The translations under genes were made by a program, and so were the position numbers. Shown piece after piece: positions 40,411-44,219 of a DNA stretch of 64,000 bases (position 1 is the stretch's first letter; the number at the start of each line of letters is the position of its first letter). Source of the stretch: Bacilli bacterium. GTDB taxonomy: Bacteria; Bacillota_I; Bacilli_A; ML615J-28; CAG-698. A model generated the notes under the pieces. That model had not been told where the DNA came from. It saw nothing but the letters and a program-made list of their open reading frames with translations, and made no database searches. The stretch spans positions 1 to 64,000 of the forward strand of contig JAGCUR010000014.1 of NCBI GenBank assembly GCA_017962745.1, written 5' to 3'.

Positions 40411-40686
40411 ATGAATAATTTTTTAGAGTATTTGGATAAAAATCTTAATGAAGTAATGTTTGATGATGAGGATGATGATTATACTAATTTGTTAAAAACA
40501 ATTGCTACTATGATTTCAAACACTAGGAATGAGAATAAGATTACACAACATGAATTATCAGAAATTACCCATATTCAACAAGGAACAATTAGTAAGATTG
40601 AAAATGGTAATTGTAATTTGACTCTTAAAATGTTACAAAGAGTCGCTGATGGATTGGGAAAGAAATTGATTGTGAAATTTGAATAG
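40411..40686 (+). CDS. XRE-family HTH regulator (antitoxin-like)
   Basis: 91 residues. An acidic N-terminal helix (about 1-25) precedes an HTH_3 domain (about 30-85) with KITQHELSEITHIQQGTISKIENG and LQRVADGLGKKLIV. Size and layout resemble HigA-type antitoxins, but no toxin gene is adjacent; the next gene encodes an ATPase beginning 13 bases later. SD aggtga. Its role is probably autorepression of the operon. Confidence 0.8.
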   Translation: MNNFLEYLDKNLNEVMFDDEDDDYTNLLKTIATMISNTRNENKITQHELSEITHIQQGTISKIENGNCNLTLKMLQRVADGLGKKLIVKFE

Positions 40687-40699
40687 AATGGTGAGAAAA

Positions 40700-41800
40700 A
40701 TGGAAAATAGAATTAATAAAATTTTTGTTAAAAACTTTAGAGGGTTAGTTGATTTAGAATTGAATAAACTAAATAGAATAAATGTTCTTGTGGGTGATAA
40801 CAATTCTGGTAAGACAAGTTTTTTAGAATGTATAAAATTGATTTCAAATCCAAATCTTAATAATGCTATTACTATGTGTACAACTAGAACAAAGCAGCTA
40901 AGAGCAGGATCATTTTTTACTGAATTTATAAATATGCTTCCGAAAAGAGATAATTCTGGAATTAATATATCTTGCATTTTTGATTCTGGTAACGAATTAA
41001 AATATAGATTAAACGGAAATGTAGTACAAACATTGATAAACCCAATTGAAATGTCAGAATATATCAAAATAATTAAATTTGATTCGATGCAAAATATTAG
41101 TCAGTTTAATGGTAAAATTGGCTATGATTTTTATAACAAAAACACTCAAGATATTAAAAAAAATGAACAAGAAATAAAATTAAATGCATTCAATGCTTTT
41201 AATTATAGATCATTTAAAGGCAAATCAAATTTGATGAAAGTAGCATACATATCACCTGTTGACTATGCTGGAATTAATCGTTCTTTTGATATTATTATTA
41301 AAAATGAAAAATATAAGGAAATAGTAATAGAATCATTAAAAATTTTTGATCCATACATTGAAGATATTTTGTACATGAAAGATGATTTCGGAGATCCAAT
41401 TGAATGTGTTAAAAATTCTAAAGTTGGAATTATTCCATTATCGTGTTATGGTGATGGTGTAAAAAAATTATTAAGTGTGGCTGGCGGCATAGCATCTGCC
41501 AATAATGGTATTTTATTGATTGATGAATTCGAAACAGCAATACACATAAAAAATTATGATGATGTTTTTAATTTTGTTGATAAAGCGTGCGAAAAATTTA
41601 ATGTTCAATTATTTATCACAACTCATTCAATAGAAGCAGTTGATGAGTTGCTTAAGATAGATAGTCTTGTTGAAAATTCTGATATAAACTTTATTACGTT
41701 ACGAAAAGATTACGATCTTAATAAAACTGTTTCAAGAACATTATCCGCTAGAGAAGTACGAGAAAATCGTAAGAACTTTGATTTTGAGGTTAGATTATAA
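40700..41800 (+). CDS. OLD/ABC-type AAA ATPase (defence-like)
   Basis: 366 residues from ATG 40700 (ggtgag at spacing 5). It begins with FVKNFRGLVDLELN, as AAA_15/OLD ATPases do. Walker A is VGDNNSGKTSF near residue 35, Walker B ILLIDEFETAIH near residue 275, and a TTHSIEAVDEL H-loop follows; a SCYGDGVKKLL signature-like stretch precedes Walker B. There is no fused TOPRIM domain; that domain is encoded by the next gene, which overlaps by one base. The split arrangement matches PARIS (AriA) or AbiL-type systems. I cannot decide between these from sequence. Confidence 0.8.
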   Translation: MENRINKIFVKNFRGLVDLELNKLNRINVLVGDNNSGKTSFLECIKLISNPNLNNAITMCTTRTKQLRAGSFFTEFINMLPKRDNSGINISCIFDSGNELKYRLNGNVVQTLINPIEMSEYIKIIKFDSMQNISQFNGKIGYDFYNKNTQDIKKNEQEIKLNAFNAFNYRSFKGKSNLMKVAYISPVDYAGINRSFDIIIKNEKYKEIVIESLKIFDPYIEDILYMKDDFGDPIECVKNSKVGIIPLSCYGDGVKKLLSVAGGIASANNGILLIDEFETAIHIKNYDDVFNFVDKACEKFNVQLFITTHSIEAVDELLKIDSLVENSDINFITLRKDYDLNKTVSRTLSAREVRENRKNFDFEVRL

Positions 41801-42546
41801 TGAATTCATTAGTATTGTGTGAAGGAAAAACAGATGCTATTTTGCTTAGTTATGTTCTAATTAATCAGTATGGTTATAAACCATTTAAAGATGAAAATGG
41901 TGACAAGAAGAATTTAACTCCAATATTTAATTCAAATTTGAATGAATATGCATATTGGTATAAAAATAATAATAGTTTTGTGTTAATATGTAGTGTCGAT
42001 GGCTGTGACAATATTTCAGAATTTTTCTCAAAATATATTATTCCGATTCAAAAAAATGATTATAAAAATGAAAATATATTTGAAAAAATTGTTATTATAA
42101 GAGATAAAGATGATAAAACTAATGAAGAAATTGAAGAGGTTATTTTATCAAAAACAAATATTAGTTTTTTATCAAACAAATGGGAAAAAGTATGTATTGA
42201 AACAAAATTTGACAATATCAATTCATTTTTTTTAACTTATTTATTAATCATTCCAATAGAACATTCAGGAGCATTGGAGGATGTTGTTTTAACTGCTTTT
42301 TCTGAAGATGATAATAAAAAAATCATTGTAGAAAAGTCATGTAAATTCATTGATGATATTAAACAGGATGCATCAACATATTTGGTAAGCAGAAGATTAA
42401 TATCAAAAGCAAAATTAGGTGTAACTCTTGCGATTATGTCTCCGGAAAAAGTATTTCATTTTATTGATGAAATGCTAAAAAATATTGATTGGACTAAATA
42501 TAATACAATAATGACTACATTTAATGTGTTATCAGAGCTTGCTTAA
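41800..42546 (+). CDS. TOPRIM-type partner of the OLD-like ATPase
   Basis: 248 residues. It starts MNSLVLCEGKTDAILL, where CEGKTD supplies the TOPRIM glutamate, followed by FEKIVIIRDKDDKTNEE near residue 95, which gives the Asp-x-Asp pair. A helical remainder follows. Such proteins (DUF4435/DUF3226-like) act as nucleases triggered by a partner ATPase, as in PARIS AriB. The start codon overlaps the ATPase stop (TAATG). It ends at a terminator-like hairpin. Confidence 0.7.
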   Translation: MNSLVLCEGKTDAILLSYVLINQYGYKPFKDENGDKKNLTPIFNSNLNEYAYWYKNNNSFVLICSVDGCDNISEFFSKYIIPIQKNDYKNENIFEKIVIIRDKDDKTNEEIEEVILSKTNISFLSNKWEKVCIETKFDNINSFFLTYLLIIPIEHSGALEDVVLTAFSEDDNKKIIVEKSCKFIDDIKQDASTYLVSRRLISKAKLGVTLAIMSPEKVFHFIDEMLKNIDWTKYNTIMTTFNVLSELA

Positions 42547-42693: not shown

Positions 42694-42699
42694 TATAAT
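42694..42699 (+). promoter_or_regulatory. -10 element before the tRNA-like RNA
   Basis: Consensus TATAAT 7 bases before the first base of the tRNA-like fold, within TGATATAATG (extended -10). It makes an independent transcript likely. Confidence 0.65.
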
Positions 42700-42705
42700 G
42701 AGGTC

Positions 42706-42802
42706 GCAGCATTGGTGTACTATGGAATTGCACGCCTGCAAAGGAGGCCCTGGTTCGATTCCAGGATGTTAAAGCGTATCAATGTTGGTACGCTTTAACA
42801 TC
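42706..42802 (+). ncRNA. tRNA-like RNA with miniature anticodon arm and a competing 14-bp hairpin
   Basis: A near-complete cloverleaf can be drawn. Acceptor GCAGCAT / ATGTTAA has 5 of 7 pairs. The D stem is GTGT / GCAC with a GG-containing loop. A 3-bp CCT-GCAA-AGG stem (42735-42744) replaces the anticodon arm. The T arm is perfect, CCTGG-TTCGATT-CCAGG (42749-42765). No encoded CCA follows. The 3' acceptor strand is also part of a perfect 14-bp hairpin (42765-42778 with 42789-42802, 10-base loop), so cloverleaf and hairpin exclude each other. The simplest reading is a decayed tRNA-Cys; a functional mimic or switch ahead of the HEPN gene is the alternative. Confidence 0.6.
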
Positions 42803-42825
42803 TTGAAATCCCACCTTTATTTTTT

Positions 42826-43539
42826 ATGAGCGTTATAATTTATGAATCAATGTGTAAAAACGTTAAGGTTCTTGAACAAACTAGAAGGGTTATTAAGAGA
42901 TTGCTAAACGATGCTCTTGTAGCTAAAAATGAAATGCAACTGAAAGCGTTGACTTATGAATTTGCATTATTATATGCAGCATATACAGAAGCTTATTTCC
43001 TGAAAATGCTTCATTCTGAAAATTGCTTTCCTAGTGATGATTATATCTATGCTATTCTATTTTTTGATACTAAAAAGCAACAAGAAAGAAGTTATGAGCA
43101 ACAATGGGAAAAATGCATTTCTGAAGGATTCAAGGTTATAACTAACAATAATAATTTGGGAGAAATTGCCAATAAGAAAAAAATAGTAACTGAGCTTGTT
43201 AAAAAGTATATAATTGAAAATAGGGAAATTAGAAATAAAATAGCTCATGGTCAATGGGAAGTTGCCTTGAACAGCAAAACAACAGCTGTGAAAAATGATA
43301 TGACGAACGAAATTAATAAATTAGATTTTGTAAAAATTGATTTATGCTTTGATTTATATAAGAAAATTATAAATATAGTATTAATGCTTTTACAATCTCC
43401 CTATCGTGGACATTATAATAATTTTTATAAGGATGTCGAAGAGGTGAATCTTATCGCTGGAAAAATTGAGGCGAGTTCTATTGACACCAAGTATAAATTA
43501 ATTAGTTGGAAAAAAGATGATGAAAATAGAAGAAAATAA
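42826..43539 (+). CDS. HEPN-domain protein (MAE_28990-like)
   Basis: 237 residues, helical, soluble. The motif REIRNKIAHGQW near residue 140 is the Rx4-6H signature of HEPN domains, many of which are RNases in toxin and defence systems. The N-terminal half (QLKALTYEFALLYAAYTEAYFL) matches the layout of MAE_28990/MAE_18760-type HEPN proteins. There is no SD before ATG 42826 or the in-frame ATG 42850; instead a perfect hairpin ends 23 bases upstream. Translation may be controlled by that RNA. No antitoxin gene follows. Confidence 0.7.
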   Translation: MSVIIYESMCKNVKVLEQTRRVIKRLLNDALVAKNEMQLKALTYEFALLYAAYTEAYFLKMLHSENCFPSDDYIYAILFFDTKKQQERSYEQQWEKCISEGFKVITNNNNLGEIANKKKIVTELVKKYIIENREIRNKIAHGQWEVALNSKTTAVKNDMTNEINKLDFVKIDLCFDLYKKIINIVLMLLQSPYRGHYNNFYKDVEEVNLIAGKIEASSIDTKYKLISWKKDDENRRK

Positions 43540-43573
43540 AAGATGCAATTAGTTATACAATTGCATCTTTTAC
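43538..43573 (+). terminator. Terminator after the HEPN gene
   Basis: Perfect 13-bp stem AAAAGATGCAATT / AATTGCATCTTTT with an 8-base loop; it begins in the stop codon. Confidence 0.85.
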
Positions 43574-43794: not shown

Positions 43795-43980
43795 ATGGAT
43801 TATATAAACAGAAAAAGTTATTTAGAAAAGTTAATTAGATTACAAAATACACCTGATATTAAAGTTATAACTGGAATAAGAAGGTGCGGTAAATCCGTAC
43901 TTTTAAAGCAATTCATAGAATACTTGAAATTGAATGATATTATTATTAAAAATAGATTTAGAATGATTTTTAAATATTGA
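43795..43980 (+). pseudogene. AAA_14/DUF4143 ATPase, N-terminal fragment
   Basis: 61 codons. [17 protein letters not shown], then [17 protein letters not shown] with an intact P-loop, match the first ~50 residues of AAA_14 (DUF4143) ATPases, which are normally about 400 residues. The match ends abruptly and the frame stops after an unrelated tail, so the rest was deleted. Confidence 0.75.
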
Positions 43981-44085: not shown

Positions 44086-44187
44086 TAATTGTATCAAAAT
44101 GGGTAAACATTGCCATTAGCAAACGTAGTTGAATACACCACACTATATGCTGGTTATGGTTGTTGATTCTACAGACAGATTTAGATT

Positions 44188-44219
44188 AGAACTGGAAATA
44201 TCCGGTTCTTTTCTTTTTT
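44188..44219 (+). terminator. Orphan terminator in the relic zone
   Basis: 9-bp stem AGAACTGGA / TCCGGTTCT (one T-G pair), loop aata, then a T-rich run. Just upstream (about 44109-44165) a short open stretch reads LPLANVVEYTTLYAGYGC and stop, possibly the end of a lost gene. Confidence 0.65.

Follow-up and report, generated by a model that had tools for sequence, protein, structure and literature searches.

A conserved pair of a tRNA-like RNA and a HEPN gene as a candidate type III-like toxin-antitoxin module in bacteria

A tRNA-like RNA without a decoding anticodon arm lies directly ahead of a HEPN gene in a contig from a member of the Bacilli (JAGCUR010000014.1, assembly GCA_017962745.1), whose first 64,000 nucleotides were analysed and are here called the window. 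As judged by sequence comparison, the cloverleaf, a hairpin that competes with it and the HEPN gene of the window together represent a module of RNA and protein that is conserved elsewhere, and comparison across genomes shows that the RNA and the gene are conserved as a pair and move as a unit. This pair is rather likely to be a module for abortive infection or a toxin-antitoxin system of type III-like design, with the tRNA mimic restraining a HEPN RNase. A search of openly accessible papers found no description of tRNA-like RNAs beside HEPN genes.

In the window, the unit is read from the forward strand and opens with a TATAAT box (42694-42699), from which transcription is predicted to start near the 5' end of the acceptor stem; no -35 consensus for this box is found in the window. 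A first-pass annotation, made from the sequence alone, had described a cloverleaf behind the box, and all of its elements are present. The cloverleaf body (42708-42770), recognised as tRNA-like by covariation, by its elbow nucleotides and by a covariance model built without the window, has an acceptor stem of only 5 bp (AGCAT/ATGTT, 42708-42712 with 42766-42770), an intact D arm (42715-42733), a short hairpin at the position of the anticodon arm (CCT-GCAA-AGG, 42735-42744) and a perfect T arm (CCTGG-TTCGATT-CCAGG, 42749-42765). The competing hairpin (42765-42802), previously put at 14 bp, extends to 17 bp around a 4-nt loop, with 14 unbroken Watson-Crick pairs followed by a G-U pair and two more. 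Because its 5' arm occupies the entire acceptor 3' strand, cloverleaf and hairpin are mutually exclusive, as had been proposed. The HEPN open reading frame (42826-43539, 237 aa), predicted to encode an RNase toxin with the motif RNKIAHGQW, starts after a spacer of 23 nt and lacks a Shine-Dalgarno sequence, both as first noted. Directly past its stop codon stands a 16-bp hairpin (43536-43573, no strand assigned), which a scan classed as terminator-like on the minus strand.

The folded region of the window is more stable than its shuffled versions in 200/200 cases (z = -4.8), and the arm CCT-GCAA-AGG, folded alone, prefers a different small hairpin. The tRNA-like RNA occurs once in the 1.5-Mb genome. 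At this RNA ARAGORN calls no tRNA, and an Rfam scan returned sub-threshold matches only, the tRNA-like SpF41 among them.

On the evidence of compensatory change among relatives, both the cloverleaf and the competing hairpin are under selection. In an alignment (A2) of 32 sequences of the hairpin-bearing type, here called class A, pairing in the acceptor, D and T stems reaches 94.8%, and these stems contain 101 double-change cells compared with 27 in shuffles, a signal that collapses on sliding. Double changes affect 5/5 acceptor pairs and, in the competing hairpin, 12/12 tested pairs (126 cells against 33 when shuffled, 32 sequences). The nucleotides of the tRNA elbow are close to invariant in the same 32 sequences: U8, G18, T54-T55-C56 and A58 are each found in 32/32, A21 in 31/32, and A14 and G19 in 30/32. 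The D and T arms, U8-A14, G18/G19 and the TTCRA elbow nucleotides together make up a tRNA-like fold. At the anticodon-arm position the family has a variable hairpin, with a stem of 3-20 bp and loops mostly of 3-5 nt, one loop having 7 nt. Within the HEPN clade of the window, 6/7 members have the GNRA loop singled out by the first-pass annotation, as GCAA or GAAA; the family as a whole does not share it. The hallmarks of a decoding tRNA, namely a 7-nt anticodon loop on a 5-bp stem, a 7-bp acceptor and a CCA end, are absent.

A covariance search bears directly on the proposed structure: a model (R2) built from 29 relatives with the window left out recovers positions 42708-42803 at 55 bits (E = 2.3e-13). 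The structure is conserved and is no near-copy of a real tRNA, and the covariation of both folds together with conservation across HEPN homologues upholds the earlier judgement that the locus represents more than plain decay. In 10 of the 37 members examined, a TATAAT-like box recurs at offset -14 from the acceptor start, and the start of transcription is therefore placed approximately at the 5' end of the mimic.

The link between RNA and protein was assessed with HEPN homologues gathered without reference to the RNA, from six viral contigs and 52 genome contigs. Because the genome scan was seeded with the peptide RNKIAHGQ, it may have passed over members whose motif differs. After setting aside a duplicate (L011), three contigs cut off at the gene (L058, L059 and L061) and two degraded fragments (L053 and L064), the tRNA-like RNA was found just upstream, on the same strand, in 52/52 intact homologues with readable upstream DNA; this count includes one locus where only the 3' half of the RNA is visible (L036) and two that are near-identical (L037 and L038). 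The homologues share 17-43% identity and span seven phyla (Bacteroidota, Pseudomonadota, Bacillota, Cyanobacteriota, Deinococcota, Myxococcota and Campylobacterota), in addition to a fragment from Fibrobacter. Carriers include Marinifilum, Oceanospirillum and Shewanella, and L034, L035 and L043 are gammaproteobacterial members. Plasmid-borne members occur in Raoultella (L073, RNA at 51.9 bits), Kovacikia (L117, RNA read by eye) and Rhodococcus (L145), where the RNA is also present and adds Actinomycetota as an eighth phylum. These comparisons support the suggestion that the mimic is functionally tied to the HEPN gene.

The pairing was also predictive in both directions. The RNA covariance model R1 alone pointed to a second RNA in locus L044 (41.8 bits), and 23 nt behind it lies a divergent second HEPN gene (RNRIAHGQW) that is absent from the protein-search list. 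In the other direction, searching 399 Pseudomonadota genomes with the HEPN profile added a single gene (L153), and the RNA accompanies it at 82.6 bits; a Bacteroidota survey run with the same settings added none. No orphan RNA was found in 368 further genomes of one proteobacterial class or in 395 further Bacteroidota genomes (763 in total). The R1 matches of 39-43 bits in these surveys were all ordinary tRNAs according to ARAGORN, and the working cut-off for class A was therefore set at about 45 bits; the RNA of L044 was accepted below it because ARAGORN finds no tRNA there and a HEPN gene comes next. Since the predictions at L044 and L153 held and orphan RNAs were not seen, RNA and protein travel together, both being rare. 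The HEPN gene is present in 1/28 genomes of the window's own family, two DNA queries found no copy in E. coli, no copy was found in phage records, and the second HEPN of L044, used to scan viral sequences, gave no hit. The L044 locus itself, from Olleya namhaensis (L044:1777-4290), carries tandem RNA-HEPN units of different subfamilies, class B and then class A-like.

The RNAs differ in layout around a constant core. Class A RNAs place the hairpin between mimic and HEPN gene. Class B RNAs have a G-rich acceptor and no hairpin, and the start codon follows at a short distance. The class B members (13/13) all belong to one HEPN clade, starred on the tree, that extends over five phyla, and RNA class changes once on the HEPN tree compared with 11.4 times in shuffles; RNA type therefore tracks the protein and not the species. 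In a third layout, read by eye in Campylobacterota (L057, L062 and L063) and in L117, an outer stem encloses the mimic and takes the place of the competing hairpin behind it. In the Sulfurovum loci the outer stem encloses an extra insertion too. From these comparisons, the tRNA mimic is the constant part of the module and the hairpin is an accessory.

Class A RNAs are predicted to be bistable. In 33 class A members the tRNA fold lies within a median of 0.9 kcal/mol of the optimum when the 3' arm of the hairpin is left off, and in the full leader the hairpin fold is ahead by a median of 10.3 kcal/mol, these being energies that exclude tertiary contacts and modifications. Class A acceptor pairs are often G-U or mismatched, for example ACTTG/CTTGT in L016, L017 and L019, and the same acceptor strand is nearly perfectly paired inside the hairpin. 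The energies and the weak acceptor pairing therefore restrict the advantage of the tRNA form to RNA still being transcribed or trimmed at its 3' end. The hairpins are mostly 15-22 bp long and a clear U-run follows only four of them (L016, L019, L056 and L060), so termination at this point is probably not general. The first-pass annotation had raised a switch controlling HEPN synthesis; the mutually exclusive pair of folds is indeed conserved, but switching cannot be what is essential about the module, given that an entire HEPN clade has the mimic and no hairpin.

The protein encoded downstream has the characteristics of the HEPN superfamily. RNKIAHGQ (residues 136-143), E55 and W94 are invariant in 47 homologues, and a confident AlphaFold2 model (pLDDT 92.6) is almost entirely helical; the predicted helical fold combined with the R-x4-H motif (RNxxxH) supports placement among HEPN proteins. 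The earlier label of MAE_28990 did not survive, as no Pfam family passes its cut-off and the nearest similarity, to HEPN_Swt1, falls short of it (E = 0.049). Similarly, no Pfam, NCBIfam, PADLOC or PDB family covers the protein, and the RNA has no dedicated Rfam family. NCBIfam shows a faint Cas13e similarity in one homologue (E = 0.0024). Sequence searches gave no solved relative, Foldseek gave no significant match to a solved HEPN structure, and BFVD gave no significant fold match.

The module is distributed sporadically. The window unit lies in a variable island, where similarity to a congener stops at the 3' end of a tRNA-Ser gene (39594). A stretch of about 108 bp (44112-44219) recurs elsewhere in the same genome (G000:C4:76548, 94%) and in the congener, which suggests nested insertions into a tRNA-Ser island. 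Upstream of the unit, an AAA ATPase and a TOPRIM/DUF3226 protein (40679-42546) match PADLOC PDC-M38A/B at 1e-98 and 2e-64 and form a separate candidate defence system. The idea that the RNA serves the neighbouring TOPRIM nuclease was dropped, and with it any link of RNA or HEPN to the AAA/TOPRIM genes: PDC-M38 is outside the most frequent neighbour families of the relatives, and the RNA accompanies HEPN everywhere. A 61-aa open reading frame behind the unit (43795-43980) resembles only the N-terminus of the PDC-S01 AAA ATPase and is apparently truncated. Elsewhere, the window genome also encodes a genuine Abi_2/AbiF protein (G000:C7:63889-64464, 149 bits). Neighbours of the relatives match models of Hachiman, Druantia, Septu and PD-T7-1, and 203 family models were matched among 140 neighbour proteins compared with 112 among 130 random proteins of the same genomes, an enrichment that is only suggestive because random stretches match many models too.

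Under the reading that is rather likely, the RNA would have a promoter of its own, with transcription beginning roughly at the acceptor, and would fold as a tRNA mimic that binds a HEPN dimer as a non-cleavable pseudo-substrate and keeps the RNase off in the manner of a type III antitoxin. The toxin mRNA would be produced by read-through, and in class A the antitoxin form could be transient or arise after 3' trimming, with the long mRNA carrying the inactive form. Phage infection, through shut-off or the degradation of tRNA or other RNA, would disturb the RNA and release the HEPN RNase, whose natural targets would plausibly be tRNAs. If the mimic restrains the RNase, it would probably do so as a pseudo-substrate that lacks a cleavable anticodon. 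Besides conservation and covariation, this reading draws on the recurring promoter box, the fold energies, the agreement of RNA class with the HEPN tree, the sporadic distribution, the island setting of the window unit, the defence genes close by and the AbiF precedent. A further proposal is more tentative: a mimic reduced to elbow and acceptor might inhibit the HEPN RNase and at the same time act as bait when tRNAs come under attack in infection, with the bistable acceptor and hairpin coupling RNA maturation to toxin dose, and such an arrangement could represent a new class of RNA-gated HEPN immunity.

Other explanations share part of this evidence. The mimic could be an activator or sensor, such that a HEPN-RNA complex detects a phage-caused change in the tRNA-like RNA (cleavage, modification, or hijacking of RNase P or the CCA enzyme) and only then cleaves RNA. 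A complete elbow is the feature presented to tRNA nucleases and to the enzymes that modify and process tRNA, it is the most conserved part of the RNA, and both the window and several relatives have defence genes close by. However, the order of RNA, hairpin and toxin is that of type III antitoxin loci, and we regard this explanation as rather unlikely. A purely cis-acting leader, in which the contest between tRNA fold and hairpin sets HEPN expression, for example through autoregulation by HEPN binding its own leader, would account for the covariation of both exclusive folds, for the hairpin being about 10 kcal/mol more stable in the full-length RNA and for the U-runs behind the hairpins of L016, L019, L056 and L060. 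Class B, which keeps the mimic without any hairpin, and the arrangement with the mimic inside an outer stem (L057, L062, L063 and L117) are difficult to reconcile with it, and it is judged improbable.

Two simpler origins are weaker still. The position of the window unit in a variable island behind tRNA-Ser is what would be expected if the RNA were a tRNA gene in decay or what is left of an attachment site next to a mobile element, but this explanation is refuted by the covariation of both folds and by the match of the covariance model that left the window out. Strong compensatory covariation, an invariant elbow, a common 5-bp acceptor and a constant position before HEPN in eight phyla also speak against it, no tRNA-tail repeat was found in the window, and it can be given almost no credence. 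It is likewise extremely improbable that the RNA is a functional tRNA with unusual decoding capacity whose place before HEPN genes is due to chance. The Rfam tRNA model (RF00005) does score above threshold in 10/18 relatives' loci scanned, but about half of the loci yield no tRNA with ARAGORN, the anticodons it assigns are inconsistent (Tyr, Stop, Leu, Met, Phe, Asn and undefined), arm length ranges over 3-20 bp with a single 7-nt loop, and in class A the acceptor is 5 bp long and lacks a CCA end.

If the RNA indeed acts as an antitoxin, a widely transferred RNA-protein pair would join the small set of RNA-gated HEPN nucleases such as AbiF and Cas13, with a partner that is a tRNA minus its anticodon. 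A guard that resembles the victim suggests why such toxins may target tRNAs. Class A would also be a natural case of bistability, with one strand contested by a tRNA fold and a hairpin. Genome annotation misses the module: tRNA finders skip the RNA or assign it an arbitrary anticodon, and the protein belongs to none of the named families.

Several known systems resemble the module in part. SpF41, a small RNA of Streptococcus (RF02435), is like the window RNA in being tRNA-like, with a T arm, no real anticodon and a hairpin behind, in SpF41 a terminator hairpin. Its model scores the window RNA at 26.2 bits, below the gathering threshold of 52, its hairpin does not share the acceptor strand, unlike that of class A, and it is located beside Streptococcus phage terminase genes or among satellite-phage genes with no HEPN annotated adjacent; it was rejected as the same system. 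SpF41 occurs in 28 records of Streptococcus phages and satellite phages (L141-L144 among such elements), just before the terminase small-subunit gene in phiNJ2 and after the conserved gene FIG01118498 in satellites. Mimicry of tRNA in a leader is also familiar from E. coli, where threonyl-tRNA synthetase (ThrRS) autoregulates through the tRNA-like thrS operator. This operator and other tRNA-mimic mRNA leaders share with the module a mimic in the leader of a possible binding protein. The thrS case is one of anticodon mimicry, whereas the module shows the opposite, a full elbow with the anticodon lost, and its gene encodes a predicted toxin.

The closest parallels are found among RNA-controlled toxins. 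In ToxIN-type type III systems, as in the module, an RNA is placed ahead of an RNase toxin gene and is likely co-transcribed with it, and an RNA immediately upstream of the toxin gene on the same strand is what 52/52 testable loci show, its antitoxin role being the putative part. ToxN is not known as a HEPN protein. The module RNA is a single, non-repeated tRNA-like RNA, with one copy per unit and no tandem repeats. ToxI, by comparison, is a tandem-repeat pseudoknot RNA, and tandem repeats count as a key type III feature (PMC12373285). The nearest understood system is AbiFCd-RCd22 of C. difficile, where a structured RNA transcribed together with the AbiF HEPN toxin neutralises it (PMC12373285). 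The AbiF/AbiD systems (Abi_2, PF07751; RF03085) resemble the module in having a structured RNA gene directly upstream of the HEPN gene, an RNxxAH motif, no protein antitoxin seen and, in some members, a terminator-like hairpin between RNA and gene. They differ in that their RNA consists of abiF hairpin motifs of about 36 nt instead of a tRNA mimic, and a bistable acceptor and hairpin is not known to be described for AbiF. Membership in AbiF was rejected, as the protein has no Abi_2 (PF07751) match and hhalign gives a probability of 0.2%; Rfam likewise finds no abiF RNA motif (RF03085) at the loci scanned. The HEPN protein is not detectably related to AbiF by profile, and the analogy therefore rests on architecture. 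The module probably works like AbiF-RCd22 without being a member of that system, with protein and RNA families of its own.
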